Below, one piece after another: positions 1 through 16,627 of a stretch of 18,098 bases of DNA. The position numbers and the translations under genes were made by a program. The stretch spans positions 1 through 18,098 of the forward strand of contig QHWL01000082.1 of NCBI GenBank assembly GCA_003222555.1, written 5' to 3'. The notes under the pieces are model-generated. The model was not told the origin of the DNA, did not search any database, and saw nothing but the letters and a program-made list of their open reading frames with translations. The stretch comes from Acidobacteriota bacterium. Its GTDB lineage: Bacteria; Acidobacteriota; Vicinamibacteria; Vicinamibacterales; CAVVIG01. Every line of letters starts with the position of its first letter. The first letter of the stretch is position 1.

Positions 1-1790
<1,790 letters not shown>

Positions 1791-1853
1791 GCTCGTCTCA
1801 CCTTTCACAAAGTCCGGCTCACGCAGGACACTCCGAGATCGGCCCTAAAAGCT

Positions 1854-1940
1854 CTACCACGGAGATCACGGAACACGAACGGAGGTCACCGTTGAATAAA
1901 AGGCCGTGCCCTCTGTAGCCCTCCGTGTTTTCCGTGGTAG
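1854..1940. repeat. Intergenic hairpin repeat, CACGGAG type, copy 1
   Basis: The 10-bp ends CTACCACGGA (1854-1863) and TCCGTGGTAG (1931-1940) are perfect inverted repeats. Between them the arms carry degenerate CACGGA/CGGAGG words that pair imperfectly, with the apex near 1891-1903. The left arm can be aligned word for word with the left arm of the copy at 7904, so the two are members of one dispersed family. It fills most of the 204-nt gap between the DUF502 stop and the hppA start. Confidence 0.85.
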
Positions 1941-1994
1941 CGCCGCAGGCACAGACAGATCTGATCGATTACGGCGACGACACAAAACGCCGGA

Positions 1995-2615
1995 TTATAC
2001 ACGGAAGTCCTTTACACGGTCGTCGCCCCTCCAGCCGCGCAGCCGCGGAGGCAGGGCCATGCCGCCGGTCAAGAAGACACGAATGCCCTCTTCGACCGAA
2101 ACGTCGGGGAAGGTGGCGCGTTCGCGCTCGCAGATGACGATGTCGCCCAAGTACAGATGGTTGGTCGGCACATAGACGGCCAGGAACGGCTCGGGCCCCT
2201 GGCCGCGGTCGATGGTGAACTCGCGCGTGAGGAACCCGAGCGCCAACCCGCGCTTGGGGTCCTCGATCAGCACGACCCGCTTGAAGCCGAATTCGTTGTC
2301 GGGGGAGAAGGCGAAGACGAGTTGCTTCACCGGCGCATAGATCGTGCGAAACACGGGCACTCGCAGCAAATAGCTCTCGGCGCGGCCCAGCAGGCGTCGG
2401 CCGAAGACGTTGGTCGCCAACGCGCCGACGAGCACAATCGCCACTGCCGTCGACAGCGTGCCGAGCCCCGGAATCCGGCGTCCGAGCAGTTGATCGTAGA
2501 ACGGCGTGGTCAGCCCGTCGACGATGCCGAAGATCCAAACGAATGCGGCGACACTGAGAAACAGCGGCACCGTCACGAAGAACCCCGCGATGAAGTAACG
2601 GCGCAGCCGCTGCAT
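1995..2615 (-). CDS. DUF502 family membrane protein
   Basis: A 206-residue protein of the DUF502 family, whose function is not established. It starts with the usual basic patch (MQRLRRYF), followed by a first membrane segment at about residues 8-30 and a second at about 53-70. Then comes the conserved soluble part with RVPVFRTIYAPVKQL near 84-98, a strand region GFKRVVLIEDPKRG, and VYVPTNHLYLGDIV followed by a GG turn near the C-terminus. Family length is usually about 200, so it is complete. The ATG at 2613-2615 fits the family start, but there is no Shine-Dalgarno: the start codon lies 2 nt from a long hairpin repeat that separates it from uppP. It probably sits in the same minus-strand run as uppP and hppA. 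It is known only as a membrane-associated family in bacteria and plants, so no reaction can be assigned. Confidence 0.9.
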   Translation of the reverse strand: MQRLRRYFIAGFFVTVPLFLSVAAFVWIFGIVDGLTTPFYDQLLGRRIPGLGTLSTAVAIVLVGALATNVFGRRLLGRAESYLLRVPVFRTIYAPVKQLVFAFSPDNEFGFKRVVLIEDPKRGLALGFLTREFTIDRGQGPEPFLAVYVPTNHLYLGDIVICERERATFPDVSVEEGIRVFLTGGMALPPRLRGWRGDDRVKDFRV

Positions 2616-2617
2616 CT

Positions 2618-2738
2618 AAATGCACGAATGCAAAAATGCTCGAATGCAAAAATGCTCGAACCTACACATGCACATGCACGAACGCATTCGTGCATTCGTG
2701 CATTCGTGCATTCCTGCATTCTCCTGCATTCGTGCGTT
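2618..2738. repeat. Intergenic hairpin repeat, GAATGCAC/GTGCATTC type
   Basis: The left arm (2618-2682) holds repeated GAATGCA/ATGCTCGAATGC words. The right arm (about 2684-2738) holds four GTGCATTC-like words and variants (CCTGCATTC, CTCCTGCATTC). The arms are inverted complements of each other with scattered mismatches. Within each arm the words recur every 8-10 bases. The element fills the whole gap between the stop of uppP (2747) and the start of the DUF502 gene (2615). It differs in word from the other hairpins of the window but has the same design. Confidence 0.85.
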
Positions 2739-2746
2739 GTCAGGGA

Positions 2747-3607
2747 TCAACGGAACATCCATACCACCACCGCGCCGGCCAACGCCAACCGGTACCAGGC
2801 GAACAGGTCCAGCGAGTGATTCGCGAAGTAGCGGATGCAGAATCTGACCGCCACGTAGCCGACAATCGCCGAGCTCACGATGCCAATCACGAACAGGATC
2901 GCCATATCGGCGTCGAGGCCGGCCTTCAACACCTTCACCCCTTCGCTGGCCGCCGCGGCCAGAATCGCCGGTATCGCGAGCAGGAAGATGAAGCGCGCCG
3001 CGTCCCTCCGCCGGAGGCCCATGAAAAGCGCGACGGCGATCGTCACACCCGAGCGAGACACGCCCGGAATGAGCGCGACGGCTTGCGCGCAGCCGAGCCA
3101 GAACGCTTCGGCCATCGTGAGGCTCCGGTCCGAACGGGTCTTGGTGCCGGCGCGCTCGGCGATGAAGAAGACGATGGCGCCGAGGGCGAGCGCAATGGCG
3201 GCCACCAGCGGCACTCGCATGTGCTCTTCGATCTCGGTGTTGAACAGCAGGCCGACGACGACAGCGGGGATCGTGCCGACGACGAGCAGCCAGGCGAGCC
3301 GCGCGCCCTGGTTTTCTTCGTCACCGCCGGATCCCAACCCTGTTTCCGGGGCATTTCGTACGACTGCCCCGGGATTGAAGACTCGCGGCAGCGACCGGAT
3401 CATCTGCTCGACCTCGGGGCGGAAGTAGATGAGCACGGCGATGAGCGTACCGACGTGGCAGGCGACGTCGAAAGACAGGCCGAAGCGGCCGGCATCGATG
3501 CCGAAGAACGTTCGCGCGAGGATGAGATGCGCCGAACTCGACACTGGCAGAAACTCGGTCAGCCCCTGGACGACGCCGAGCACGGCTGCTTGGAGGGTGG
3601 CGGGCAT
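2747..3607 (-). CDS. uppP: Undecaprenyl-diphosphatase
   Basis: Removes one phosphate from undecaprenyl diphosphate so that the lipid carrier can be reused for peptidoglycan and other envelope polymers; an integral inner-membrane enzyme. The 286 residues match the BacA/UppP family (about 270). Signatures visible are QGLTEFLPVSSSAHL at about residues 13-27, which contains the catalytic Glu/Ser motif, and PGVSRSGVTI near 190, plus about eight hydrophobic spans. I chose the ATG at 3605-3607, giving MPATLQAAVLG, because it matches the family N-terminus and has GGTGAG 9 nt upstream. An in-frame ATG 81 nt further up would add a non-hydrophobic Arg/Ala-rich stretch foreign to the family. There is a mildly long linker (RNAPETGLGSGGDEENQG) after the second span. 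It lies 125 nt downstream of secF, so it may be a weakly coupled last part of the sec operon. Confidence 0.95.
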   Translation of the reverse strand: MPATLQAAVLGVVQGLTEFLPVSSSAHLILARTFFGIDAGRFGLSFDVACHVGTLIAVLIYFRPEVEQMIRSLPRVFNPGAVVRNAPETGLGSGGDEENQGARLAWLLVVGTIPAVVVGLLFNTEIEEHMRVPLVAAIALALGAIVFFIAERAGTKTRSDRSLTMAEAFWLGCAQAVALIPGVSRSGVTIAVALFMGLRRRDAARFIFLLAIPAILAAAASEGVKVLKAGLDADMAILFVIGIVSSAIVGYVAVRFCIRYFANHSLDLFAWYRLALAGAVVVWMFR

Positions 3608-3732
3608 CGTTGTCGGCTCACCAGAGCGCGAGACTCCACGCGCGAGCGCAGCGCCTGCGGCTCGGACGAGCGGGCCCCGCGAGAACACGAAACGTCTTCA
3701 GCGCGTGGGGCCGGCCCCCAGGGCGCCGGCAG

Positions 3733-4737
3733 CTAAGATGCGCGCGCTTTCCTTTGAGGCTTGGATCGGCGCGTGGGCTGCTGCGGTGCGACGACGGTCG
3801 TGGCGGGTGCGTGCGCAGCGGCTCGTGTCGGACCGCTGCCGCGCCAGAAGCTCACGATCGCCGCGGCGATGAAGACGCTGGAGTAGGTGCCGGTGATAAT
3901 GCCGACCACCATCGTGAACGCGAAGCCGTGCAGCACTTCGCCGCCGAAAAAGAAGAGGGCGAGCGCCGTGAGCAGCGCCGTGCCCGATGTGATCACCGTC
4001 CGTCCCAACGTCTGGTTGACCGAGATGTTGATCACCTGGTTCAGCGAATCGCGCCGCATGGACCTCAGATTTTCGCGAATCCGGTCGAAGATGACGATGG
4101 TGTCGTTGGTCGAATAGCCGGTCATCGTGAGAATCGCCGCAACCACGTTCAGCGACATGTCGTAGCGGAAGAACGCCAGGAACGCGAGCGTGATCAACAG
4201 ATCGTGAATCGTCGCGATGACGGCGCCGACGCCGAAGCTGAACTGAAAGCGAAACGCCAGATACAGAAGGATGCCGATGAGCGACAACACCGTCGCCTGC
4301 AGCCCTTTGCTGCGCAGCTCCCGGCCGACGGCCGGGCCGACGATTTCAGTACCGGACCTCTTGAAGGTGCCCACGGTGCCTTGCTTGAGCGCATTCTCGA
4401 CAGCGTCCGCGGTCGTACTGAGCGACGCCCCCGACTCGGCGCCGACCTGCGGGACGCGAATCATCACCTCGCGCCGTGAGGCGTCGCCGTAAGTCTGAAC
4501 GATGACGCTCTGACCGCCGCCCGGAAACGACTTGTCGAGGGCGGCCCGCACCTGCTGAACCGAGGTCGGTTGATCGAACTGCAAGATGAGCACGGTGCCG
4601 CCGGCGAACTCGACGCCTTGCGGAATGCCCTTGGTGACGATCGTGGCGATTCCGGCGATGATGATCAGCCAGGAGAGCGCCAGGGCGTGCCAGCGCCAGC
4701 GCAGGAAGTCGTAATTGGGCTTGTTGAAAATATGCAT
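3733..4737 (-). CDS. secF: Protein translocase subunit SecF
   Basis: Partner of SecD in the proton-driven accessory complex that pulls preproteins through SecYEG from the periplasmic side. The 334 residues show the family layout: a first span at about 18-36, the periplasmic domain beginning GVEFAGGTVLILQF, then EIVGPAVGRELRSKG and five spans, with the conserved MTGYSTNDTIVIFDRIREN (about residues 205-223) and LGRTVITSGTALLTALALFFFGG. A C-terminal tail of about 35 residues rich in Ala, Pro, Arg and Lys follows the last span and is not conserved. The ATG lies 2 nt after the secD stop with no Shine-Dalgarno, which points to translational coupling. Confidence 0.97.
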   Translation of the reverse strand: MHIFNKPNYDFLRWRWHALALSWLIIIAGIATIVTKGIPQGVEFAGGTVLILQFDQPTSVQQVRAALDKSFPGGGQSVIVQTYGDASRREVMIRVPQVGAESGASLSTTADAVENALKQGTVGTFKRSGTEIVGPAVGRELRSKGLQATVLSLIGILLYLAFRFQFSFGVGAVIATIHDLLITLAFLAFFRYDMSLNVVAAILTMTGYSTNDTIVIFDRIRENLRSMRRDSLNQVINISVNQTLGRTVITSGTALLTALALFFFGGEVLHGFAFTMVVGIITGTYSSVFIAAAIVSFWRGSGPTRAAAHAPATTVVAPQQPTRRSKPQRKARAS

Positions 4738-4739
4738 GG

Positions 4740-6341
4740 CTAGATTGAAAGCGTCGCGACCTGGTGGCGCCTTGCGAGCGCCAGCTCGAACAGGGTCTTC
4801 GACACGAAGATCGAGGTGAACAGGTTTGAGATCAAGCCGAAGAACAGCGTCACGGCGAACCCGCGAATCGGCCCGGTGCCGAACTGGAACAGAAACGCCG
4901 CCGAGATGAGCGCCGAGACGTGCGTGTCGACGAGCGTCCAGAACACGCGGCTGAACCCCGCGTTGATCGCGGCGCGCACGCCGCGCTGCGCCTCGAGCTC
5001 TTCCTTGATGCGCTCGAAAATGAGCACGTTCGAGTCCACACCGATCCCCATGGTGAGCACGAAGCCCGCGATGCCCGGCAGCGTCATCACGGCGCCGATA
5101 TACGCCATCAGCCCGAGCAGGATGATGAGGTTGAAGATGAGCGCCACGACCGCGTTCACACCGGACAACCTGTAGTAGACGAGCATGAAGCTGACGACGA
5201 GCAGCAGGCCGACGACCGAGGCGAGGACGCCCGAGCGGATCGAATCGGCTCCCAGGCTCGGCCCGATCGTGCGCTCCTGCAGATATGTGAGCGACGCCGG
5301 CAGCGCGCCCGACCGCAGGATGAGCGACAGGTTCTGCACTTCTTCCTGGGTGAAGCTGCCGGTGATGCGGCCGTCCGTGGTGATGCGCGAGTCGATCCGG
5401 GGCGCCGACTGCACGCGGCCGTCGAGAATGATGGCGAGCTGCCGGCCGATGTTCTCGCTGGTGACCTTGCCGAACTTGCGTCCGCCTTCCGAGTTGAGCG
5501 TGAAGCTGACGGCCGCCTGATTGTTTTCGTCGAGCGACGGCCTGGCATTGCGCAAATCGCGGCCGGTCACCGCCGCCGCTTTTCGCACCAAGTAGTACAC
5601 GGTGCCGGCCGCTTCGCCTGCAGTGCCGGTCGCGCCCGGGACGATTTCCATGCCGGCCGGCACCTGCCCGTTCTGCTGCAGAGCTTCCGCGGTCGGGGAC
5701 GGCCCCTGTTCGACGATTTTCAACTCGAGCAACCCGGTCGACCGGATAATCTCCTTCGCGCGCTCGACGTCGGTGACGCCCGGCAGCTGAACCAGAATCT
5801 CGTCGCCGCCCTCACCCTGCTGCGCGATGTCGGGCTCGGTGACGCCGAGCTCGTTCACGCGACGCTCGATGGTCTGTCTCGCCTGCACCACCGAGTCGTC
5901 GCGAAGGTTGACCACGATGTTGGGCTTCATCGTGAACGTGTAAGTACCGTTGGTGCCCGCGCTCCGATCGAAGTTGGCCTGGACTTCGATGGCGGCCTGT
6001 CGGAACGCGGCGTCCTGGGCCGGCGGCACCCCCTCGACACGGAAATGGGTCGAGTCGGGTGACGTCACGGTCACCCCGGTAATCCCGCGCTTGGTCAGCT
6101 CCTCGCGCAGCCGCTCCATCTCCGTCTCGGTTTCGATCCGGAGCGCATCGTCGGTCTGCACCCGCAGGACGAGGTGCACGCCGCCCTTGAGATCGAGTCC
6201 CAGCTTCAACTGCTTGTCCATCAGCCAGCCCGGTGAATGGACGCCGTAGTGCGCGGCGACGATCGGGTAGACACCCACGCTCCCGAACACCACGAAGACG
6301 GCGAGAATAGTGATGACTTTCCAGCGTAGATTGCTTGGCAT
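4740..6341 (-). CDS. secD: Protein translocase subunit SecD
   Basis: Large subunit of the SecDF export motor in the inner membrane. The 533 residues include an N-terminal span (about 9-30), the motif GLDLKGG at 48-54, a long periplasmic region with the P1 head domain, then TIGPSLGADSI and five C-terminal spans. The proton-path motif TMGIGVDSNVLIFERIKEEL lies near 440-460, and the family end GPIRGFAVTLFFGLISN is present. The start ATG has GGTGAG 10 nt upstream, overlapping the end of yajC, whose stop is 3 nt away. Order and spacing show one operon, tgt-yajC-secD-secF. Nothing in it is truncated. Confidence 0.97.
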   Translation of the reverse strand: MPSNLRWKVITILAVFVVFGSVGVYPIVAAHYGVHSPGWLMDKQLKLGLDLKGGVHLVLRVQTDDALRIETETEMERLREELTKRGITGVTVTSPDSTHFRVEGVPPAQDAAFRQAAIEVQANFDRSAGTNGTYTFTMKPNIVVNLRDDSVVQARQTIERRVNELGVTEPDIAQQGEGGDEILVQLPGVTDVERAKEIIRSTGLLELKIVEQGPSPTAEALQQNGQVPAGMEIVPGATGTAGEAAGTVYYLVRKAAAVTGRDLRNARPSLDENNQAAVSFTLNSEGGRKFGKVTSENIGRQLAIILDGRVQSAPRIDSRITTDGRITGSFTQEEVQNLSLILRSGALPASLTYLQERTIGPSLGADSIRSGVLASVVGLLLVVSFMLVYYRLSGVNAVVALIFNLIILLGLMAYIGAVMTLPGIAGFVLTMGIGVDSNVLIFERIKEELEAQRGVRAAINAGFSRVFWTLVDTHVSALISAAFLFQFGTGPIRGFAVTLFFGLISNLFTSIFVSKTLFELALARRHQVATLSI

Positions 6342-6344
6342 AGC

Positions 6345-7861
<1,517 letters not shown>

Positions 7862-7903
7862 TCAGTTTACAATCGCAATGCTCCATCACTTACACTCGCA
7901 CAT

Positions 7904-8005
7904 GCTCTACCACGGAGGTCACCGATACGAACAGAGGTCACGGATTAAAACCTTTAACAAGCTTTCCGTGTCCTCCGTTCGTTTCCGTGTCCTCCGTGGT
8001 AGAGC
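7904..8005. repeat. Intergenic hairpin repeat, CACGGAG type, copy 2
   Basis: The ends are a perfect 15-bp inverted repeat (7904-7918 with 7991-8005, GCTCTACCACGGAGG). Pairing continues with few mismatches through ACGAAC-GAGG-CACGGA words to about 7947 and 7961, leaving an A/T-rich apex (ATTAAAACCTTTAAC). It is the best-preserved hairpin in the window and aligns with the copy at 1854-1940. It lies between the divergent starts of tgt and ddl. Confidence 0.92.
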
Positions 8006-8040
8006 TTGAGTGGTAGCGCTTTGAGTGAGTAGCGCCTTGA
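7996..8040 (+). repeat. Three tandem 14-16 bp units directly before ddl
   Basis: Units GTGGTAGAGCTTGA (7996-8009), GTGGTAGCGCTTTGA (8010-8024) and GTGAGTAGCGCCTTGA (8025-8040) follow each other without a gap. The first overlaps the right end of the hairpin. They end 10 nt before the ddl start codon and take the place where a Shine-Dalgarno would be expected. Confidence 0.75.
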
Positions 8041-8050
8041 ACGGACCAAC

Positions 8051-9187
8051 GTGAAAAAAATCCGCGTCGGCGTGATCTACGGCGGCCGTTCCGGCGAGCA
8101 CGAGGTGTCGCTCGCCTCGGCGGCGGCGGTGTTCCAAAACCTGGATCCGCAACGCTACGATCCGATCGCCATCCGCATCGAGAAGGACGGCCGCTGGACG
8201 CTGGCCGACCACCCCCCGAGGCTTGTGTCGGCGGCCAGCGTCATCGAGGCGGCGGCCAACACCCGGCCGGTCGAGACCGGACGCGAAGCGCACCTGGTCG
8301 CCCACCCCGGCATCGAAACAGTCCTGACGATCGACCGCACGGACCGCCACCATGAGGTCGTTTCCGGTCTCGCCCTCGACGTCGTGTTTCCGGTGCTGCA
8401 CGGCCCCTACGGCGAAGACGGCACCGTTCAAGGTTTGCTCGAGCTCGCCAACGTGCCGTACGTCGGCGCGGGCGTCCTCGCGTCGGCCGTCGGCATGGAC
8501 AAGGCGACGATGAAGCTCGTGTTCGCAGCCTGCGGGCTGCCGATTTGCGATTACGAGGTCGTTCTCAAGCGCGACTGGCAGCGCGACGAGCGCCGAACGA
8601 TGCACACGATCGTCACGCGGCTGGGCTTTCCGGTGTTCGTGAAGCCGGCGAACCTGGGATCGAGCGTCGGCATTTCGAAAGCCAGGCACGCCGCCCAACT
8701 GCGGACGGCGATCACGTTGGCCGCCGAGTTCGACCGCAAGATCGTGATTGAAGCCGCCGTGCCGAAGGCGCGCGAGATCGAGTGCGCCGTCGTCGGCAAC
8801 GACGAGCCCGAGGCCTCGATGCCGGGCGAGATTATCACCTCGCGCGAATTCTACGACTACCAAGCCAAGTACCTCGACGAAGGATCGCGGTCGGTGATTC
8901 CGGCGCCCCTCACCGATGCACAGACGCAAGAAATTCGAACGCTGGCGGTCGCCGCCTTCAAGGCGGTCGACTGCGCCGGCATGGCGCGCGTCGACTTTCT
9001 GCTCGAGGGCGAGAGCGGTGTGCTGTACGTCAACGAGCTGAACACGATTCCCGGATTCACGACGATCAGCATGTATTCGAAGATGTGGGAAGCGAGCGGC
9101 CTGCCCTACCCCGCGCTCATCGATCGGCTCATCGCGCTCGCCCTCGAACGGCACGCCCAAAAACAGCAGCTCCGGACCAGTATGTGA
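8051..9187 (+). CDS. ddl: D-alanine--D-alanine ligase
   Basis: ATP-grasp enzyme joining two D-Ala for the peptidoglycan precursor in the cytoplasm. The 378 residues show the N-terminal VGVIYGGRSGEHEVSLASA, then HGPYGEDGTVQGLLELANVP, the ATP-binding lid VKPANLGSSVGISKA, the omega loop YDYQAKY, ARVDFLL and NELNTIPGFT. The Tyr-containing omega loop (YDYQAKY) is that of D-Ala-specific ligases, not of D-Ala-D-Lac (VanA-type) enzymes. The start is GTG at 8051, giving MKKIRVGVIYGG, which fits the family; the Shine-Dalgarno is poor and three short tandem units lie directly upstream. The stop is TGA at 9185-9187, followed 6 nt later by a hairpin repeat. Confidence 0.96.
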   Translation: MKKIRVGVIYGGRSGEHEVSLASAAAVFQNLDPQRYDPIAIRIEKDGRWTLADHPPRLVSAASVIEAAANTRPVETGREAHLVAHPGIETVLTIDRTDRHHEVVSGLALDVVFPVLHGPYGEDGTVQGLLELANVPYVGAGVLASAVGMDKATMKLVFAACGLPICDYEVVLKRDWQRDERRTMHTIVTRLGFPVFVKPANLGSSVGISKARHAAQLRTAITLAAEFDRKIVIEAAVPKAREIECAVVGNDEPEASMPGEIITSREFYDYQAKYLDEGSRSVIPAPLTDAQTQEIRTLAVAAFKAVDCAGMARVDFLLEGESGVLYVNELNTIPGFTTISMYSKMWEASGLPYPALIDRLIALALERHAQKQQLRTSM

Positions 9188-9193
9188 ACGTTC

Positions 9194-9276
9194 ATCACGA
9201 AGACGCGAAGGACACGAAGAACCTCTTGTACAAGGGATTCCTTCGTGTGTCTTCGCGATCTTCGTGCCTTCGCGAT
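9194..9276. repeat. Intergenic hairpin repeat, CGAAG type, copy 1
   Basis: Left arm ATCACGAAGACGCGAAGGACACGAAG (from 9194) is the inverted complement, with mismatches, of the right arm ending CTTCGTGCCTTCGCGAT (9276). The repeated word is CGAAG with a CAC/CGC lead. The apex contains a perfect 10-bp palindrome CTTGTACAAG at 9225-9234. It fills the gap between ddl and the TPR-like gene and could end ddl transcription, though no T-tract follows. Confidence 0.85.
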
Positions 9277-9300
9277 GTACTACGGCGTTGGGAGCCCCGG

Positions 9301-10872
9301 ATGCGCGCGTGGGCCGCAGGCGCTTTCGCTGTGGCAATCCTCTTTGCGTCGTCGGCCGGGGCGGCGCTCACCGAAGGCGGCCGGCTCAGGGCCGTCTACG
9401 ACACGATCCTTGACGCGCAATTCGATCGCGTCGATGCGCAGCTGAAGCAGACCTGTCCGCCCGCTCCGGGAGAGGCCTGCCAGACGCTCGGCGTGGTCGC
9501 GCTGTGGTGGCAGATTCTCATCAATCCCGAAAGCCGTCTGCTCGATCGGCGTTTCGCAGATGCGGCCGCGGCGGCTATCTTGGCCAACACCCGGTGGACC
9601 AGCCGCGAGCCACAACGCGCAGAAGCCTGGTTCTATTTGGCTGGGTCGTATGCGCCACTGGTGCAGTGGCACGTGCTCCGACGCGAGCGGCTCACGGCCG
9701 CGCGCGAGGGAAGCCAGATCAAGACCGCGCTCGAGCGAGCGCTGCAGCTCGATCCGGCGCTGAACGATGCGTATTTCGGCATCGGCCTCTACCATTACTA
9801 CGCCGACGTGGCCCCGGCGGCGGCGAAGTTCCTGCGGTGGCTGCTGCTACTGCCTGGCGGCGACCGCGTGAAGGGACTCCAGGAGATGCTCCAGGCTCGC
9901 GAGCGCGGCGAGCTGCTCAGAGGAGAGGCCGACTATCAGCTGCATCTGGTGTATTTGTGGTACGAGCAGAAGCCGCGGCAGGCGCTCGATTTGCTCGAAA
10001 TACTCGAGGCGCGCTATCCCTCGAACCCGCTCTTTCTCCAGCGCATCGCCGAAGTCGAGAGCGAATACTTTCAGGATCACCCGGCGAGCGCCGCCGGGTG
10101 GCAAACCCTGCTCGATCGCGCGCGCGGCGGCCGCGTGTGGGACGCCCCGCTGGCCGAGGTGCGCGCACGGCTGGGGCTCGCCTCCGAGCTCGACGCGATG
10201 TATGAAAGCGACCGCGCGATCGAAGAGTTGAAAAGAGTCGTCGAACTGAAGCCAATCGCACCGTTCGCCGCACGCACCCAGCTGCAGCTGGGCACGGCGT
10301 ACGATCGACTGGGGCAACGCGATCTCGCCGCGGCCGCTTACGTGACCGCGGTGGCGCTCGCGTCCGATGACGACCCGCTCCGGATTCGCGAGCGCGCCCG
10401 CTCGGGCCTGCGGCAGAGGCCCGACGTGCGTGTCGCCGAGGCCTACCGCCTGTCGCTCGACGGCTGGCGCGCGCTGGAGCGCGGTGCACACGAGGACGCC
10501 CGGCGCCTCCTGACGCGCGCCGTGATGCTCGCCCCCGAAGACTCGGTCGCTCGCTATCGCTATGCTCGCGCGCTCGAAGCGGACGGCGATCGCGCCAACG
10601 CGCGCGCGCAACTCGAAAAAGTGATCGCCGCGCGCCCGATTCCTCCCGCAGTCGTGCTCGCCGACGCGTATGTGGCCTACGCGCAGCTGCTCGAGCGCGC
10701 CGGTGAACGCGCGCGCGCGATCACGATGTATCGTGAGGCCGCCCGACTCGTCGGAGGTGTTCCCCGCGCGCGCGATCAGGCGAAGCGTGCGCTCGAACGA
10801 CTGTCGACGAGTTCAACTTTTTTTGACTTTTTTTTCAGATTGTGCTTGACATCGTGCGCGTCCCGCCCGTAA
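9301..10872 (+). CDS. Exported TPR-like repeat protein of unknown function
   Basis: Predicted 523-residue exported protein. Residues 1-21 form a signal peptide (MRAWAAGAFAVAILFASSAGA), so it should act in the periplasm or at the envelope. The body is alpha-helical with Ala/Arg/Leu-rich repeats of TPR character, for example ALERALQLDPALNDAYFGIG, ALDLLEILEARYPSNP, LQLGTAYDRLGQRDLAAAAY and ARALEADGDRANARAQLEKV. Start ATG at 9301 follows GGGAG with 6 nt spacing; the frame is open further upstream but that part is antisense-like and overlaps ddl. Two cysteines lie close together near residues 56-66. The C-terminal tail after KRALERLS is unusual (TSSTFFDFFFRLCLTSCASRP): its T-tracts and TTGACA look like the promoter region of the next unit rather than selected protein. 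TPR proteins usually mediate protein contacts; no specific role can be named. Confidence 0.85.
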   Translation: MRAWAAGAFAVAILFASSAGAALTEGGRLRAVYDTILDAQFDRVDAQLKQTCPPAPGEACQTLGVVALWWQILINPESRLLDRRFADAAAAAILANTRWTSREPQRAEAWFYLAGSYAPLVQWHVLRRERLTAAREGSQIKTALERALQLDPALNDAYFGIGLYHYYADVAPAAAKFLRWLLLLPGGDRVKGLQEMLQARERGELLRGEADYQLHLVYLWYEQKPRQALDLLEILEARYPSNPLFLQRIAEVESEYFQDHPASAAGWQTLLDRARGGRVWDAPLAEVRARLGLASELDAMYESDRAIEELKRVVELKPIAPFAARTQLQLGTAYDRLGQRDLAAAAYVTAVALASDDDPLRIRERARSGLRQRPDVRVAEAYRLSLDGWRALERGAHEDARRLLTRAVMLAPEDSVARYRYARALEADGDRANARAQLEKVIAARPIPPAVVLADAYVAYAQLLERAGERARAITMYREAARLVGGVPRARDQAKRALERLSTSSTFFDFFFRLCLTSCASRP

Positions 10873-10873
10873 T
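10846..10873 (+). promoter_or_regulatory. Candidate sigma-70-type promoter with upstream T-tracts
   Basis: A perfect TTGACA (10846-10851) is followed after 16 nt by CGTAAT (10868-10873), or after 18 nt by TAATCT (10870-10875). Two long T-tracts (10818-10824 and 10828-10835) lie just upstream and could act as an UP element. This A/T-rich patch stands out in GC-rich surroundings. It overlaps the last codons of the TPR-like gene and faces the small lysine-rich ORF. Confidence 0.6.
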
Positions 10874-10881
10874 CTACCTGT

Positions 10882-11086
10882 GGTATGAGGGTGGTCAACT
10901 TAGGCTACCCCTAGTGAGGTTGCCAGCTTCAAGAGGCAAGCGTAACCTCGCCCTTCCGCAATCCAACGGAAGGTGCCGCGAAGCGACGGGCGCCGGCGCC
11001 GGGTGAGCGTGCCAGGCGGCAGCCACTGAAGCGGCGACGTGAGCGCTCTCGCAAGCAAACCCACATGAAGGGGGGGATAACAGACA
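10882..11086 (+). ncRNA. Candidate structured leader or small RNA of unknown class
   Basis: About 200 nt between the candidate promoter and the small ORF, with several possible stems: GAGGTTGCC (10916-10924) with GGC and AACCTC (10935-10949, 6-nt bulge); CCTTCCG (10952-10958) with CGGAAGG (10967-10973), loop of 8; and GAGCG (11005-11009) with CGCTC (11044-11048), enclosing TGCC/GGCA and GCC/GGC stems. No longer reading frame with a start explains it on the plus strand. I do not recognise it as a known riboswitch; the lone GCCACTG is not enough for a cobalamin riboswitch. Structure is read by eye only. Confidence 0.45.
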
Positions 11087-11137
11087 ATGGCGAAGAAAGC
11101 CAAGGGCGGGAAGAAGAAGGCCGGCAAGAAACGGTAA
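11087..11137 (+). CDS. Tiny lysine-rich protein (16 residues)
   Basis: The ORF reads MAKKAKGGKKKAGKKR, with nine Lys and one Arg in 16 residues. It starts at ATG 11087, is preceded in frame by TAA at 11078-11080 so cannot be longer, and ends with TAA at 11135-11137. A purine run AAGGGGGG (11069-11076) lies 10 nt before the ATG and can serve as Shine-Dalgarno. A good promoter and a long leader precede it, and an intrinsic terminator begins 16 nt after the stop, so it is the only coding part of a self-contained unit of about 300 nt. The composition recalls basic nucleic-acid-binding tails (histone H1-like), but no family can be named. It could instead be a chance ORF in a small RNA; the well-placed start, purine run and terminator argue for translation. 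Confidence 0.55.
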   Translation: MAKKAKGGKKKAGKKR

Positions 11138-11153
11138 GCTGACCTCGCCCGTC

Positions 11154-11183
11154 AAAAAAAGGGGGCGGCTGTCGCCCCCTTTT
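11154..11183 (+). terminator. Intrinsic terminator, probably bidirectional
   Basis: A-tract (11154-11160), stem GGGGGCG (11161-11167), 5-nt loop, CGCCCCC (11173-11179), then TTTT. On the minus strand the same stem is followed by seven T, so it can also stop transcripts from the convergent cyclophilin gene. On the plus strand the short T run extends the stem by pairing with the A-tract. Confidence 0.85.
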
Positions 11184-11210
11184 CCACGTACGCCTGCCGA
11201 TGCGCGCGTC

Positions 11211-11315
11211 TTTCATCACGAAGACTTTCATCACGAAGACACGAAGCTCACGAAGGTACACGAAAACCTAAGGCTTTTTGTCTTTCTTCGTGACCGTCGT
11301 GGCTTCGTGATAAAC
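11211..11315. repeat. Intergenic hairpin repeat, CGAAG type, copy 2
   Basis: The arms 11227-11269 and 11273-11315 pair closely (TTCATCACGAAG...CTTCGTGATAAA) around the apex AAAACC-TAA-GGCTTTT. A further TTTCATCACGAAGAC unit at 11211-11225 duplicates the left end, so the left side has a partial tandem copy. The element lies between the terminator of the small unit and the stop of the convergent cyclophilin gene. It shares its word with the hairpin at 9194-9276. Confidence 0.9.
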
Positions 11316-11342
11316 GTTTCGGGCCCGCCATCACGATCGGCT

Positions 11343-13496
11343 TCACGGGCTGCCCTGAGTCGATTGCGCTCCGTCCCAGATTCTGACGCGACGGATCACG
11401 TCCCATTGCTCAATCTTGTCGACGATGTCCATCCCGGCGATGACTCGCCCGAACACCGTGTACTTCGCATCGAGATGCGGCTGTGGTAAGTGCGTGATGA
11501 AGAACTGGCTGCCGCCGGTGTCGGCCCAGTCGAGCGCCATGCCAACGGCACCGCGGAGAAACGGGCGCTCGCTCAGCTCGTCGCGAATCGCATACCCGGG
11601 TCCTCCCTCGCCGTCGCCGCGGGGATCTCCGCCCTGCACGACGAAGCCTGGCACCACGCGGTGGATAGGCAGGCCGTCGAAAAAACCTTTACGTGCGAGC
11701 GTCGTGAAATTCTCGACCGTCAGCGGCGCGTCGACGACTGCCAGCTCGATTTGGATGGTGCCGCGGTCGGTATCGATGTACACCTGCGTCGATACAGGCG
11801 GGTTCGTCAGTCGCGGCGCCTCGTAGGCGTCGACCGGCAGCTGCGACGGCGCGGGCCGAATCTGCGCGTCGACATCGTTGGCAGGGTCGAGCTGCTTCAA
11901 GAGCGCGGCAGCGCGGACACGCACGGCCCAGTCCTTGTCGGCGAGCGCCTCTTTGAGCACCGGCGTCGCCGCGGCGGCGCCGTATCTGGCGAGCGCGGCG
12001 AGGGCCGCCGCACGCGCGAGGTAGGTGGCATCGCGCTGGCCGAATCGGTAGGCGTCGGCGAGGGCCTGCCCACCATTGGCCGGCTTCAGCTCTCCCATGC
12101 CGTTCGCCGCAGCTACGCGCACTACGGGATCCTCGGCCTTGAGCCGATCGAGGATAACCGTGGCGGCGTTGGGTGAGCGGAGCTTTACCAGCGACGCCAG
12201 CACCGCGGGGAAGACGCGCTGATCGCTGTCATTGAGCATCGTCGTCAACCGAGGGAGGCCGATTTCGGGCGTCAACGTGCCAAGTACCGACGCGAGCGCG
12301 GCGCGCACCGTCCAGTTCGAATCGGGGTCGATACCGGACAGCACCGTCACGAACTCTTCGGGATCCTGCGCGGCTGTGGAGCCGAGCGCCGCGGCGCGAA
12401 TCGACGGCTTGGGGTCCGACAGCAGGTCCAGCAACACCTCGTTGACGGCGGGGACTGCATGAAGCCCGCCGAGAGCGGTCACCGCCTCGAGCCGCACGTG
12501 CGGTTCCGCATCGGCGGCCGCGACGATCTTCAGCAGCGGCGCGGCGGCTGCCGCGTCGCCGATGCGCCCGAGCGCACGGATCGCTTCGATGGTCACCGTG
12601 CGGTCTCCCGCGGTGAGGAGCGGCAGCAGAACGGGCAGCGCCGTGCGGTCGGCCAGGAGGCCGAGCCCTTTCACCGCAAACGCGCGCGTGTAGGGCTGCG
12701 CGTCCTTCGCAAGCGTGAGCAGGGCGTTCAGTGCGCGCTTGTCCTCGAGGCGCTGCAACGCGAACGCGACCGGCCACCACCGAACGCGCGGCTGCCCCGA
12801 AGCGTCGAGCACGGCGGCGGCGAGCTGATCGTAGGCCTTCAGCCGGACGAGCGCGTGCACGCCGAGTCGAAACGCAGACGCCGGCGTGTCGCGCCGGGCA
12901 TCCTCGTCCTCTCCCGGCTGCCCGACGGCGCCTCCCTGAACGATCTGCGCGACCATCCGCCCGATCGGCTCGGCGGCGGCCTGATCACCGATTAGGCCAA
13001 GCGCCTCGGCGGCACTTCCCTGCACGAGCGGCGACTCGTCGGAGAGCGCCCTGACCAGAGGATCGCGGGCCGTCTTGTCGCCGAGTAGACCGAGCGCGAA
13101 CGCCGCCATCTGCCGGACTTCCGGATCGGAGTCACCGAGCACCGCCACCAGGGGCTGCACGCCGTCGCGCAGCCCCACGCGTCCAACGGCCAGCGCGGCC
13201 CGCCGCCGCACGCGCGCCTCATTGTCGGACAGCAGCCTGATCAAATCGGGAGGCGGCGGGGACGGCGCGACGACCGGCGCATTCTGGCCGGGCACCGCCG
13301 CAACAGGTGTTGGTGGATCGGCCGGCGGCGCTTGATCGCGCAGCACCCGTTGGTTCTCCAGCCTCAAGATCGCCGCCGCCTTCTGCTCGAAGGACAGCGC
13401 CGGCGGAATCGGAACAATAACCGGCGCCGGCGGGGGAGCGCTCGCGCACGCGGAAGCGGCGAGCGCCAGCGCCAGCGCAACAGTCGTGCGAATCAT
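11343..13496 (-). CDS. HEAT-repeat lipoprotein with C-terminal cyclophilin-type peptidyl-prolyl isomerase domain
   Basis: Predicted 717-residue envelope protein that would fold or stabilise exported proteins. The N-terminus MIRTTVALALALAASAC ends in a lipobox-like ASAC, with Cys17 as likely lipid anchor, followed by a Pro-rich linker. From about residue 95 to 525 there are many HEAT/PBS-lyase-like repeats, such as DNEARVRRRAALAVGRVG, DSDPEVRQMAAFALGLLGD and DRTVTIEAIRALGRIGD. The last ~160 residues are a cyclophilin domain with TDRGTIQIEL, the catalytic Arg segment IHRVVPGFVVQGGDPRGDG, GGSQFFITH and HLDAKYTVFGRVIAGMDIVD. The ATG at 13494-13496 is chosen because it gives the signal peptide; the frame is open 44 codons further but overlaps the divergent kinase gene. 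No clear Shine-Dalgarno. The fusion of helical repeats to an isomerase suggests substrate recruitment by the repeats (inference). Confidence 0.9.
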   Translation of the reverse strand: MIRTTVALALALAASACASAPPPAPVIVPIPPALSFEQKAAAILRLENQRVLRDQAPPADPPTPVAAVPGQNAPVVAPSPPPPDLIRLLSDNEARVRRRAALAVGRVGLRDGVQPLVAVLGDSDPEVRQMAAFALGLLGDKTARDPLVRALSDESPLVQGSAAEALGLIGDQAAAEPIGRMVAQIVQGGAVGQPGEDEDARRDTPASAFRLGVHALVRLKAYDQLAAAVLDASGQPRVRWWPVAFALQRLEDKRALNALLTLAKDAQPYTRAFAVKGLGLLADRTALPVLLPLLTAGDRTVTIEAIRALGRIGDAAAAAPLLKIVAAADAEPHVRLEAVTALGGLHAVPAVNEVLLDLLSDPKPSIRAAALGSTAAQDPEEFVTVLSGIDPDSNWTVRAALASVLGTLTPEIGLPRLTTMLNDSDQRVFPAVLASLVKLRSPNAATVILDRLKAEDPVVRVAAANGMGELKPANGGQALADAYRFGQRDATYLARAAALAALARYGAAAATPVLKEALADKDWAVRVRAAALLKQLDPANDVDAQIRPAPSQLPVDAYEAPRLTNPPVSTQVYIDTDRGTIQIELAVVDAPLTVENFTTLARKGFFDGLPIHRVVPGFVVQGGDPRGDGEGGPGYAIRDELSERPFLRGAVGMALDWADTGGSQFFITHLPQPHLDAKYTVFGRVIAGMDIVDKIEQWDVIRRVRIWDGAQSTQGSP

Positions 13497-13536
13497 CGAC
13501 GGGCGACGCTCGTCGCGATCGATCTTCACTTCGCGA

Positions 13537-14196
13537 ATGATATCATCGGCGCGCTTGCGGTTCCGCCACATCGTGATCGAAGGGCCCATCGGCGCGGGAA
13601 AAACCGCGCTCGCCGAGCGGCTCGGCACGCGCCTCGATGCGACCGTCGTCCTCGAGGAAGGAGAGAATCCGTTCCTAGCCGATTTCTACGCCGACCGGCC
13701 GGGCGCCGCGCTGCAGGCCCAGCTGTTCTATCTGCTGAACCGGCATCGCCAGCAGACCTCCCTACGGCAAGCCGATCTGTTCAGCCAGACCACGATCTGC
13801 GATTACCTGTTCGACAAGGATAAGATCTTCGCTTACCTCAACCTTGACGACAACGAGCTGTTCATCTATCAGCGACTCTACGATCTGCTCGCGCGCGAGG
13901 TGCCGCCGCCCGATCTCGTGTTATATCTGCAGGCGCCGACCGACGTGCTGCTCCGGCGGCTGCGTCAACGGCACGCCGATCCCGACGCGGCGGCTTTCGA
14001 GCCCGACTCCGAGTACCTGCGGGAGCTGAACGAGGCGTACCACCATTTCTTTTTTCATTACAACGCGACGCCGCTGCTCGTCGTAGAAACCTCACAGTTC
14101 GATTCGGAGGGAAGCGAGGAAGCGCTCGACGATTTGGTCAAACAAATCCGCGGCATGGGGCCGGGGAAGCGGTACTACGTGCCGCGAACGAAATAG
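13537..14196 (+). CDS. Deoxynucleoside kinase (deoxyadenosine/deoxyguanosine kinase-like)
   Basis: Phosphorylates deoxynucleosides in salvage; cytoplasmic. The 219 residues show the P-loop GPIGAGKT at 16-23, preceded by RHIVIE, then FLADFYADRPGAALQAQLFYLLNRHRQ, the ICDYLFDKDKIFA stretch, IYQRLYDLL, PDLVLYLQAPTDVLLRRLRQR (the lid region) and a C-terminal LLVVETSQFD. This is the layout of the bacterial dNK family; the exact base specificity cannot be read. The ATG at 13537 is my choice; TTG at 13555 (giving MRFRHIVIEG) fits the family N-terminus as well, and neither has a Shine-Dalgarno. The gene diverges from the cyclophilin lipoprotein with only 40 nt between the starts, so promoters must overlap coding sequence. 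Confidence 0.88.
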   Translation: MISSARLRFRHIVIEGPIGAGKTALAERLGTRLDATVVLEEGENPFLADFYADRPGAALQAQLFYLLNRHRQQTSLRQADLFSQTTICDYLFDKDKIFAYLNLDDNELFIYQRLYDLLAREVPPPDLVLYLQAPTDVLLRRLRQRHADPDAAAFEPDSEYLRELNEAYHHFFFHYNATPLLVVETSQFDSEGSEEALDDLVKQIRGMGPGKRYYVPRTK

Positions 14197-14238
14197 CCCT
14201 TGGTCGTGAGTCCGCCTTCAGAGCTTGTGAACAAATCA

Positions 14239-14322
14239 CGTTAAACGCAGAGACCGCGGAGAGCCGCAGAGAAGAAATGCCCAAGGATTTCTCAGCGTGC
14301 TCTGCGAGCTCTGCGTTCAACG
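14239..14322. repeat. Intergenic hairpin repeat, CGCAGAG type
   Basis: Left arm CGTTAAACGCAGAG... (14239 on) pairs with right arm ...CTCTGCGTTCAACG (ending 14322) with mismatches; the repeated word is GCAGAG. The apex is AGAAAT (14273-14278) with ATTTCT (14287-14292) around GCCCAAGG. It lies between the kinase stop and accD, and its right end is about 30 nt before the codons of the conserved accD N-terminus. Confidence 0.88.
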
Positions 14323-14394
14323 TCGCATTTTTTCACAGGCTCTTCAGGCGGACCGTGGTTCAAAAAGGCCCGCACGCCGATCGCCCCGACCGAG

Positions 14395-15270
14395 GTGAAA
14401 GCCAGCCGGGTGCCCGAAGGGCTGTGGATCAAATGTCCTGGCTGCTCGCAGATCATCTACAACAAAGATCTCGCGACGAACTTGAACGTCTGCCCGAAGT
14501 GCGCCCACCATTTGCGCGTCAACGCGGCCGATCGACTCCGCATGCTGTTCGATGGCGGATCGTGGACGGAATACGACAAAGGGCTCGTGTCCATGGATCC
14601 GCTGGCGTTCAACGACACCAAGCCCTACAAAGCACGTCTGAAGGCGAGCACCGACGCGACGGGACTGAAGGACGCGGTCATCGTCGGCTCCGGCTCCATC
14701 GACGGCATTCAGACGATCGTCGCCGCCATGGAATACGAATTCATCGGCGGCAGCATGGGTGTGGTCGTCGGCGAGAAAATCACGCGCGGAATCGAGCGGG
14801 CGATCGACGAGCGGTGGCCGGTCGTCATCGTGTGCTGCTCGGGCGGCGCGCGGATGATGGAAGGTGCGCTCTCGCTGATGCAGATGGCGAAAATCTGCGG
14901 GGCCCTGGCGCAGCTCGATCGCGCGCGGCTGCCCTACATTTCGGTGCTCACCGATCCGACGACCGGCGGCGTGACGGCGAGCTTCGCCATGCTCGGCGAT
15001 CTGAACATCGCGGAGCCCAAGGCGCTCATCGGCTTCGCCGGACCGCGAGTCATCGAGCAGACGATCCGTCAGAAGCTGCCTGAGGGCTTTCAGCGCAGCG
15101 AGTTCCTGCTCCAAAAAGGCATGCTGGACCTCGTCATCGATCGCCGCGAGATGAAGGCCGTCATCGCCAACGCCCTGCGTTTCATGGGCGCCTCGCAGAC
15201 CGATACCGCGGCGGCGGCCATCGCCCCGACGGCGGTCGCCGCGGCCGGCCGACCCGCGCGGCAAGCTTAG
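14395..15270 (+). CDS. accD: Acetyl-CoA carboxylase carboxyltransferase subunit beta
   Basis: Beta subunit of the carboxyltransferase that makes malonyl-CoA for fatty acid synthesis. From GTG 14395 it is 291 residues and has the N-terminal zinc ribbon C14-PG-C17 and C33-PK-C36, then GGSMGVVVGEKI, VCCSGGARMMEGALSLMQMAK, PTTGGVTASFAMLGD, and GPRVIEQTIRQKLPEGFQRSEFLL. The frame continues upstream with PWFKKARTPIAPTE (14353-14394), which is plainly the conserved AccD N-terminus, but no ATG, GTG or TTG lies in that frame between the stop at 14242 and 14395. The true start is therefore uncertain: GTG 14395 has no Shine-Dalgarno and would drop the conserved N-terminus. The C-terminal tail is Ala-rich. 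folC follows with no gap. Confidence 0.92.
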   Translation: MKASRVPEGLWIKCPGCSQIIYNKDLATNLNVCPKCAHHLRVNAADRLRMLFDGGSWTEYDKGLVSMDPLAFNDTKPYKARLKASTDATGLKDAVIVGSGSIDGIQTIVAAMEYEFIGGSMGVVVGEKITRGIERAIDERWPVVIVCCSGGARMMEGALSLMQMAKICGALAQLDRARLPYISVLTDPTTGGVTASFAMLGDLNIAEPKALIGFAGPRVIEQTIRQKLPEGFQRSEFLLQKGMLDLVIDRREMKAVIANALRFMGASQTDTAAAAIAPTAVAAAGRPARQA

Positions 15271-16602
15271 GTGCCCGACTCCCTCACCTACCTCCTCGGC
15301 CTCGAGCAGATCGGGATCAAGTTCGGCCTCGAGAACATCAGGACGCTCGTGGACCGCCTGGATCACCCCGAGCGTGCCTTTCGCTCGATTCATGTCGCCG
15401 GCACCAACGGCAAAGGCTCGGTGACGGCGATGCTCGACACGGCGCTCCGTGCGGCCGGGCACCGCTCGGGGCGCTACACGTCGCCGCATCTGGTCGACCT
15501 CACCGAACGGTTCGTCATCGATGGCCGTCGGGTGGAAACGGCGGCGCTCAACGCGGCCGTCGCCGAAGTGCGGCATGCCATCGACGATCTTCGCGCGACA
15601 GGAGCACTGCAGGTTCAGCCCACCTTCTTCGAGGTCACGACAGCCGTCGCCTTCGAGTTGTTTCGTCGGGCGGGTGTCGACACGGCGGTCGTCGAGGTCG
15701 GCCTGGGCGGCCGGCTCGACGCCACCAACGTCATAACCCCTGTGGCATCGGCGATAACGTCCATCGCGTTCGATCATCAGAAATACCTGGGATCGACGCT
15801 TCGCGACATCGCGCGCGAGAAGGCCGGCATCATCAAGCCGGGCGTGCCGGTCGTCGTCGGCGATCTGGCGCCCGAGGCGCTCGCGGCGATTGAAGACACG
15901 GCGCGCGAGCAGGGCGCCGAGCTCATTCGAGCGTCGGAAGGCGTGACCATCGACGCGGTCCGGGTAAAGCCCCACACGACGGACAAGGGGAGCGTAGGCG
16001 TCCGGCTTCAGCCGGACATCTCAACCATCCGGCTGCGGACGCCGACGCGCAACTACGGCGAGATCGATCTGGCGCTTGCCGGCGCCCATCAAATCGCCAA
16101 CGCCCTCGTCGCCGTGCGAGTGCTCGAAGTCGCCGACACCCACAGCGTGACGGTGCCTCGCGACGCGGTCGTCAAGGGACTTGCAAGCGTCTCGTGGCCC
16201 GGGCGGATCGATCGACGAACGCTGCCGGACGGTCGCGAACTCATTCTCGACGCGGCCCACAACCCCGCCGGAGCCGCGGCACTGGCGGCGTACCTGGCCG
16301 GCGCGGGCGGCCCGAAGCTGCCGCTCGTGTTCGCGGCGATGCGCGACAAGGATGTCGGCGGAATGTTCCTCGCGCTGCTGCCGGCCGTCGGCGCCGTGTT
16401 CATGACCCAGGCGTCAAATCTGCGGACGACGGATCCGGAAGTGCTGGCGCATCACGCGCGAATTGCCGCGCCGAATGTTCCCGTGCAGATCGAGCCCTCG
16501 CTCGACGAGGCTCTCGACGCCGCCTGGCAGATCTCGCGGCGGATCGTGGTCGCCGGATCCATTTTTCTCGTCGGCGACGTGCTCAAGCGGATCGGCGAGT
16601 AG
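15271..16602 (+). CDS. folC: Bifunctional folylpolyglutamate synthase/dihydrofolate synthase
   Basis: Adds glutamate to dihydropteroate and to reduced folates in the cytoplasm. The 443 residues contain the P-loop GTNGKGSV (about 44-51), YTSPHLVDLTERF, VEVGLGGRLDATNVI, FDHQKYLGSTLRDIAREKAGIIK, and the C-terminal domain start WPGRIDRR with DAAHNPAGA. The GTG start follows the accD TAG directly and is in the same frame, so translation is probably coupled. Residues about 230-251 (VRVKPHTTDKGSVGVRLQPDIS) look like an insertion between the two domains; they are encoded by a palindromic element described separately. Catalytic parts are intact, so the enzyme is expected to work. Confidence 0.95.
   Translation: MPDSLTYLLGLEQIGIKFGLENIRTLVDRLDHPERAFRSIHVAGTNGKGSVTAMLDTALRAAGHRSGRYTSPHLVDLTERFVIDGRRVETAALNAAVAEVRHAIDDLRATGALQVQPTFFEVTTAVAFELFRRAGVDTAVVEVGLGGRLDATNVITPVASAITSIAFDHQKYLGSTLRDIAREKAGIIKPGVPVVVGDLAPEALAAIEDTAREQGAELIRASEGVTIDAVRVKPHTTDKGSVGVRLQPDISTIRLRTPTRNYGEIDLALAGAHQIANALVAVRVLEVADTHSVTVPRDAVVKGLASVSWPGRIDRRTLPDGRELILDAAHNPAGAAALAAYLAGAGGPKLPLVFAAMRDKDVGGMFLALLPAVGAVFMTQASNLRTTDPEVLAHHARIAAPNVPVQIEPSLDEALDAAWQISRRIVVAGSIFLVGDVLKRIGE
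15958..16017 (+). repeat. Palindromic element inside folC (encodes VRLQPD)
   Basis: GTCCGGCTTCAGCCGGAC (16000-16017) is a perfect 8-bp inverted repeat with a 2-nt centre, read in frame as VRLQPD. A degenerate relative, GTCCGGGTAAAGCCCCAC (15958-15975), precedes it and is read as VRVKPH. Together they form a 20-residue stretch that interrupts the link between the two FolC domains. Confidence 0.75.
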
Positions 16603-16627
16603 GATGAGGCGGCCAGGAGTACCGGTC

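Follow-up and report, generated by a model that had tools for sequence, protein, structure and literature searches.

Contig QHWL01000082.1 of an Acidobacteriota bacterium (assembly GCA_003222555.1; positions 1 to 18,098 of the forward strand, the entire 18,098-nt stretch being referred to here as the window) carries a housekeeping region with six long intergenic hairpins whose arms are rows of short, degenerate tandem words. Words of the same kind flank, as inverted arms, the gene of a small nuclease, GxxExxY (PF13366/TIGR04256), in many phyla; the six hairpins are probably gene-less copies of mobile elements that resemble the intervening sequences (IVSs) of 23S rRNA and are moved in trans by GxxExxY. 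Pfam assigns genes of the window to H+-pyrophosphatase, DUF502, BacA/UppP, SecF, SecD, Tgt, a tetratricopeptide repeat (TPR) protein, HEAT-cyclophilin, dNK and carboxyl transferase; Ddl, YajC, FolC and LptD were assigned by reading open reading frames (ORFs). The hairpins, and the tandem copies adjoining one of them, are:

1851..1943: CACGGAG-word hairpin in the gap between the H+-pyrophosphatase and DUF502 genes; fold z -6.64.
2618..2738: hairpin of GAATGCAC words (in another register, CACGAATG) in the gap between the DUF502 and BacA/UppP genes; fold z -6.90.
7901..8008: CACGGAG-word hairpin in the divergent gap between tgt and ddl; arms 86% complementary, fold z -12.37.
7996..8040: right end of the 7901 hairpin in about three imperfect copies of 16 nt, arranged in tandem (consensus GTGGTAGCGCCTTGA; Tandem Repeats Finder (TRF), 83% matches).
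9190..9280: CACGAAG-word hairpin directly 3' of the ddl stop codon; stem scan, fold z -4.45.
11210..11319: CACGAAG-word hairpin in a convergent gap; arms, TRF, fold z -4.71.
14210..14353: CGCAGAG-word element before the carboxyl-transferase gene; fold z -4.94, multiple alignment.

All six had been proposed by a sequence-only reading of this DNA, and all are present at or near the positions that it gave. Inverted-repeat arms were located at 1851-1943, 2619-2712, 7901-8008, 11224-11317 and 14238-14323, an ungapped stem scan detected those at 9190-9280, and TRF detects the tandem words. The folding that the reading suggested gives RNA structures of -40.7 to -67.4 kcal/mol (z -4.45 to -12.37), with none of 200 shuffles as stable for any of the six. 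Five hairpins score 16.2-31.4 in the stem scan, whereas six dinucleotide-shuffled versions of the window reach at best 11.6-16.0; by this measure the 14238 hairpin (16.2) is borderline, and the 1851 hairpin, with its interrupted stem, falls below the reporting limit of 15. The gene table places all six between genes (four co-directional gaps, one divergent and one convergent), which bears out the placement originally claimed, and the judgement that this is not a terminator design and that no classical transposase is nearby was right. Scanned against Rfam, the hairpins gave sub-threshold matches alone, mostly to microRNA models, and none at the gathering score.

Words, copies and turnover between sister species

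The sequence-only reading had assigned different words to different families. The four words of the window (CACGGAG, CACGAATG, CACGAAG and CGCAGAG) do differ, but all conform to a single pattern, C-R-C-N-R-A-G or -T. Because of this common pattern, and because one arm of a copy elsewhere in the source genome (L049) mixes GAATGCAC and CACGAAGG words, the six hairpins are treated as one superfamily. They are not single-copy: a word search of the source genome returns hundreds of matches. Triples of CRCNRAG (with gaps of 1-3 nt) occur 545 times (284 + 261), against once for the reversed pattern, and CGCNGAG pairs 892 times, against 18 for the control. (Since overlapping triples are counted repeatedly, elements are fewer than matches.) The family of the hairpin at 2618..2738 has 21 matches on 13 contigs of the source genome, several of them one element read on both strands, and the CGCAGAG family has more than 30 dispersed copies in the congeneric genome G001 (40 of 587 candidates were scored).

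Alignment of 39 non-overlapping CGCAGAG copies from the source genome and G001 (30 rows shown) reveals, in these 30, a common asymmetric core and, in most rows, middle arms AGAGCCTGTGAA...TTCACAGGCTCT; the copies therefore look derived from a common source. The member in the window extends to about 14210-14353 once its outer arms, GTCCGCCTTCAGAGCTTGTGAA and TTCACAGGCTCTTCAGGCGGAC, are included. Its outer arms (GTCCGCCTTC..GGCGGAC) resemble those of repetitive extragenic palindromes (REPs), and within them lie middle arms (AGAGCTTGTGAA..TTCACAGGCTCT) and an inner word hairpin.

G001, the one congeneric genome compared, shows synteny throughout the window, with blocks that are 80-87% identical. 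It differs from the source genome at four of the six gaps and shares the hairpin family at two. G001 lacks the hairpin that follows ddl, and likewise the CGCAGAG element that precedes the carboxyl-transferase gene; at the 11210 gap CACGAAG words are absent and other words are there; and at the 1851 gap a CGCAGAG-family element replaces the CACGGAG one. The tgt-ddl gap holds the same family with a different loop, and the DUF502-BacA gap the same family in shorter form. By means of flanking sequence, 13 further source-genome sites (13 of 20 flanks taken) were placed in G001. At three of these (L074, L081 and L045), with both flanks readable, the source-genome element is absent; at eight, one flank aligned and the adjoining printed stretch of G001 (running into N in two cases) contains no such words; two are unreadable in G001 (L080, a run of N, and L064, a contig end). 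The empty orthologous gaps for which the sequence-only reading had proposed to look thus exist, together with differently filled ones. The hairpins are mobile elements.

That reading had also offered growth of hairpins by template switching; as local mutation, together with slippage, this would need no dedicated enzyme. Tandem words and complementary arms would fit such growth, as would the tandem hairpin ends at 7996-8040 and at 11210-11240 (where the left end of the 11210 hairpin, CTTTCATCACGAAGA, is doubled as two perfect 15-nt copies), both of which are perhaps traces of slippage or of repeated insertion. On the other hand, the differences between sister species are whole elements, copies have long non-word sequence in common, and the same words recur around the same gene in 18 phyla, which template-switch growth cannot by itself explain. 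As the origin of the hairpins, local mutation is very improbable.

At 11154-11183, after a short Lys-rich ORF (11087-11137), the window has an inverted repeat that is rich in G+C and precedes T residues; it has the look of an ordinary terminator. Repeat and ORF are nearly identical in G001.

The GxxExxY gene between word arms

GxxExxY is a PD-(D/E)XK nuclease by its fold and by its catalytic D and E-x-K, and the words are associated with its gene. Among 78 named loci from 18 named phyla of bacteria and some archaea, inverted words lie on both sides of the gene at 51 and on one side at 24, against none of 212 shifted control windows. (The count covers the 78 of 80 named loci, and the 40 of 44 loci of relatives, that had a motif-recognised ORF.) In each arm CRCNRAG words form a short tandem row, at a spacing of mostly 8-10 nt, and the two arms enclose a single gene; the full element measures about 420-800 nt between outer words (44 named loci). 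The inverted-arm test on GxxExxY covered 79 of 81 fetched loci (80 named and one viral), L251 and L276 being cut off by a contig edge. A first arm test, which took in 30 PF05635 loci and 29 of the 30 PF13366 loci fetched, is not relied on because 4 of 60 mispaired PF13366 controls scored 49-79.

The arms of a GxxExxY element of G001 (L136) align with the window hairpins at 1851 and 7901 beyond the words themselves. Its left arm scores 28 and 26.5, respectively, against shuffled maxima of 15 and 16, and its right arm 21 and 25.5, against shuffled maxima of 12 and 14. The alignment covers ATACGAACGGAGG (ACACGAACGGAGG at 1851 and ATACGAACAGAGG at 7901), which is no simple word row; against the other four window hairpins these arms do not score above shuffles. 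By these alignments, gene-bearing and gene-less arms of the CACGGAG family are akin. An intact GxxExxY gene of the source genome (L142) has CACGAAG arms, one of which also beats shuffles against the 7901 hairpin, and a broken one lies between CGCGGAG/CGCAGAG arms. In a strict pair scan of source-genome stretches the sole inverted pairs more than 250 nt apart surround the broken gene, and 23 other forward pairs have their partner within 250 nt; the scan did not pick up the intact L142. Because members of the family, here and in many phyla, carry a GxxExxY gene between their arms, the family is not purely non-coding. The "mobile non-coding element" of the sequence-only reading was thus well chosen as to mobility and a single shared kind, and mistaken or incomplete as to coding content.

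Presence of the gene predicts abundance of the words. Triples number 11-615 in the 26 genomes, of 40 relatives, that have the gene; of the 14 that do not, twelve have 0-5 and the other two 29 and 231. Over 159 genomes of the class, at least ten triples are found in 51 of the 64 that have a PF13366 gene and in 18 of the 95 that lack one (odds ratio 17); the corresponding numbers are 38 of 46 and 12 of 71 for genomes at least 90% complete, and 48 of 64 and 18 of 95 after subtraction of the control. Word number follows PF13366 number (Spearman 0.74), and the closer two GxxExxY proteins are, the more alike are their words (Mantel r 0.29, p 0.0005, the same after GC control). On the protein tree phylum labels need 36 changes (minimum 17, shuffle mean 52), which is to say that phyla are mixed, though not randomly. 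GxxExxY is found in 8 of 72,556 plasmid records, without a match at E 1e-5 in 50,697 phage records, and at a single IMG/VR locus (with CACAAAG-like arms); a phage origin therefore looks unlikely. G071 and G148 have several PF13366 genes and a reversed control about as frequent as the words or more so; in these genomes the words may differ or other repeats may interfere.

GxxExxY might instead be a passenger in hairpin loops, with a host enzyme, or some other enzyme acting on palindromes, spreading the hairpins. This would accommodate the 18 genomes that have at least ten triples and no detected gene, and also the fact that an unrelated four-helix protein, PF05635, occupies the same architecture, there with different words, as though hairpins served as carriers in general. 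However, the matching of words with proteins is near exclusive (a CRCNRAG pair occurs at 1 of 69 PF05635 loci, whereas words, by a slightly looser pattern, are at 75 of 78 GxxExxY loci), the presence of the gene predicts the abundance of words, and the word profile tracks protein distance. The passenger explanation is accordingly considered unlikely.

The reading favoured here, that the six hairpins were moved in trans by GxxExxY, has a number of observations weighing against it. No target-site duplications were seen in the comparison with G001, although at 80-87% flank identity small ones would be lost, as would footprints, the sister species differing at about one fifth of bases. Element ends are approximate, and no transposition event was observed. 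Words are absent from both sides of the gene at 3 of the 78 named loci and 12 of the 40 loci of relatives, and lie on both sides but in opposite orientation at 6 and 1, respectively. The L142 arms align with the hairpins at 9190 and 11210 barely better than shuffles do. Foldseek returned no match in PDB at E <=0.001 (a solved GxxExxY structure, sought by sequence, was not found). Among genomes of the class, 18 of the 95 without a detected PF13366 gene still have at least ten triples, and the reversed control reaches ten in 12 of 64 genomes with the gene and 0 of 95 without. G110 (rated 100% complete, 239 triples) and G036 have more than 230 triples and no detected PF13366 gene, G110 being the contrary case; in these two either the gene was lost or is unassembled, or the words were moved by something else. 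PF05635 number (0.37) and genome size (0.39) are also weakly correlated with word number, as is, negatively, completeness (-0.46). Word triples are nominally associated with the presence of a REP-associated tyrosine transposase (RAYT; p 0.025), and all of these tests ignore kinship of genomes. Finally, the arms of single copies do not co-vary in two source-genome families (18 and 14 copies), contrary to what the sequence-only reading expected of a shared family. Pairing would therefore have been inherited from a master copy rather than kept copy by copy, as is expected for decaying copies of a mobile master.

The lack of co-variation bears also on the possibility that the hairpins are functional RNAs, namely terminators or regulatory RNAs under selection. 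Stable folds and intergenic position speak for this, and maintained RNA stems were an early idea, disfavoured once arm co-variation was found to be absent. With turnover between sister species and weak Rfam matches alone in addition, selection for an RNA function is extremely unlikely.

Proposed mechanism and the four-helix sister class

Most likely, the GxxExxY nuclease would recognise the word arms in hairpin form, and would move its own element and also, in trans, gene-less hairpins; the intermediate would be a hairpin of single-stranded DNA or of RNA. Elements settle in intergenic gaps and, at times, in the centres of existing palindromes. Apex insertion, slippage and template switching are candidate routes by which words may multiply, and the tandem duplications of hairpin ends in the window fit slippage.

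A sister class uses other words, most often of 7 nt, together with the four-helix protein of 23S rRNA intervening sequences (IVP; PF05635). In a sample of 69 of 70 PF05635 loci (30 set by the search tool, 40 picked from the better part of a longer list), 53 have inverted arms (score at least 18), against 8 of 300 mispaired controls. The best arm period is 7 nt in 36 of the 53 (GGGATTC, TCAGCTG, GGGACTG and others), and arm autocorrelation is at least 0.6 in 29 of the 53, against 5 of 1,060 shuffled. At one orthologous site G001 has a PF05635-gene element (E 7e-12) and the source genome a CACGAAG hairpin, which lies inside apparent remnants of similar arms.

Two further observations concern this class. 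Hairpins on source-genome contig 412 (L050:30-110, 8040-8120 and 13488-13553) have the words GGTTCCT, AATTTACAATTCAC and GGGACTT, which resemble words around four-helix IVP genes. At L178 (G010:C206) the arms around a PF05635 gene have class-two words outside and CACAAAG-like words inside, a possible hybrid of the two classes.

A scan for nesting gave 64 pattern matches at about 31 loci, many of them overlapping readings of one site. The CGCAGAG core lies, by reading with the aid of the multiple alignment, between REP palindrome halves at ten loci (the window, L097, L114, L184, L194, L196, L200, L201, L207 and L212); at four more loci five copies of it (L198, L199 twice, L202 and L203) have class-two words on either side; about 17 other loci have ordinary, one-sided, mixed or masked flanks. 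Outer flanks are palindromic (score at least 12) in 19 of 50 cases, against 87 of 400 mispaired controls. This excess is modest and the copies share sequence, so that the argument for nesting is made from individual loci and from site L081; such single cases are suggestive of insertion at a palindrome apex. None of the 20 PF05635 and 20 GxxExxY loci scanned for location lies in rRNA.

A broader proposal can be offered tentatively, and is on balance doubtful: that bacteria and archaea share a new class of mobile element whose hairpins insert at the tips of hairpins already present. The arm words would be recognised by the single nuclease GxxExxY, or by the four-helix protein in its place, and repeated apex insertion would generate the tandem-word arms. 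If so, the 23S rRNA IVS would be a special case, with an rRNA stem as the target hairpin. Through the word association, GxxExxY proteins, spread over 18 named phyla and listed in NCBIfam by the name of their motif alone, gain a habitat and a role that can be tested. The association also connects a large body of intergenic repeats that had lacked an explanation with two small protein families, and bears on a possible source of 23S rRNA IVSs. The matching of words with proteins makes the mechanism directly testable in vitro.

Comparison with known systems

REPs and REPINs with RAYT (TnpA-REP), and TIRYTs, are described in the available excerpts of two accounts as dispersed intergenic palindromes for which movement in trans by a repeat-framed gene is presumed (PMC3733652, PMC6006769). 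As there described, they resemble the word hairpins in being short, dispersed intergenic palindromes and in the framing of a gene by the same repeats. The six hairpins could then be REP or REPIN elements moved by RAYT, a Y1 HUH transposase. Y1 transposase genes are indeed present in 28 of the 40 relatives, triples are nominally commoner in genomes with RAYT, REP halves often flank the CGCAGAG element, and hairpins of the CACGGAG family end in GTGGTAG, which contains GTAG (REPs bear a GTAG or CGTC tag at one end). Against this, many RAYT loci are framed by REPs or terminal inverted repeats (TIRs) of their own, word arms lie on both sides at 0 of 30 RAYT loci and on one side at 3, and the number of words does not track that of RAYTs (Spearman 0.19, p 0.24). 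No Y1 (PF01797) transposase lies between word arms, and arms of degenerate tandem words distinguish the word hairpins from REPs. RAYT was rejected as the main mover on these grounds, its nominal association with triples notwithstanding, and is a highly unlikely explanation of the window.

In six relatives (L020, L027, L028, L031, L036 and L037) Y1 transposase genes are framed by GTAG-type palindrome clusters. The window also has a seventh intergenic hairpin, of another kind, at 16679-16741 (AAAAGGGGCC..GGCCCCTTTT). It resembles repeats that surround a RAYT-like gene of a relative (L017, AAAAGGGGTCGTACCCC) and is perhaps an element of the TIRYT type.

The relation of gene-less copies to a gene-bearing element through their inverted ends (L136 with the hairpins at 1851 and 7901) is that of a miniature inverted-repeat transposable element (MITE) to a known insertion sequence, except that the gene between the arms is PF13366/TIGR04256 and no recognised transposase. 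Cas4 has iron-sulphur cysteines; unlike Cas4 and other PD-(D/E)XK nucleases, GxxExxY is a stand-alone protein of about 120 residues. The TAACTGA heptamers of Beggiatoaceae are likewise tandem 7-nt words and mostly intergenic, with transmission by mobile elements one of the options discussed; they are reported as direct repeats, and the excerpt available has no mention of hairpin arms around a gene (PMC4679880). Eighteen IVP genes were reported inside cas loci, and word arrays near them may have passed for a CRISPR-like context (PMC3936711). Related literature, likewise in excerpt, deals with rRNA insertions in bacteria of the Candidate Phyla Radiation (CPR; PMC11270868), diversity-generating retroelements (DGRs) and Avd (PMC10053308), and bacterial reverse transcriptases (PMC8934634). 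In the open-access literature, as available in part and without supplements, no description of repeat-framed GxxExxY genes or of GxxExxY mobility was found.

The 23S rRNA IVS is described, in the excerpt available, as a short ORF enclosed by complementary ends that form a stem; it measures 428 nt in Coxiella, occurs sporadically and is called selfish; IVSs replaced tetraloops of rRNA helices, and their origin is called unclear (PMC4990558). The GxxExxY and PF05635 elements share the stem of complementary ends around a short ORF; tetraloop replacement, as there described, takes place at the same kind of site as insertion into a palindrome centre; and in the relatives analysed word arms flank genes of the IVS protein family itself (S23/IVP, PF05635). 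Unlike IVSs, the class in the window goes with a PD-(D/E)XK nuclease rather than a four-helix protein, its elements lie between protein genes (0 of 40 scanned loci being in rRNA), and its gene-less copies are very numerous. A further mark of IVSs is their excision from the transcript by RNase III. By strict membership the hairpins are thus neither REPs nor MITEs of a known transposase nor rRNA IVSs; in architecture they are closest to the IVS.

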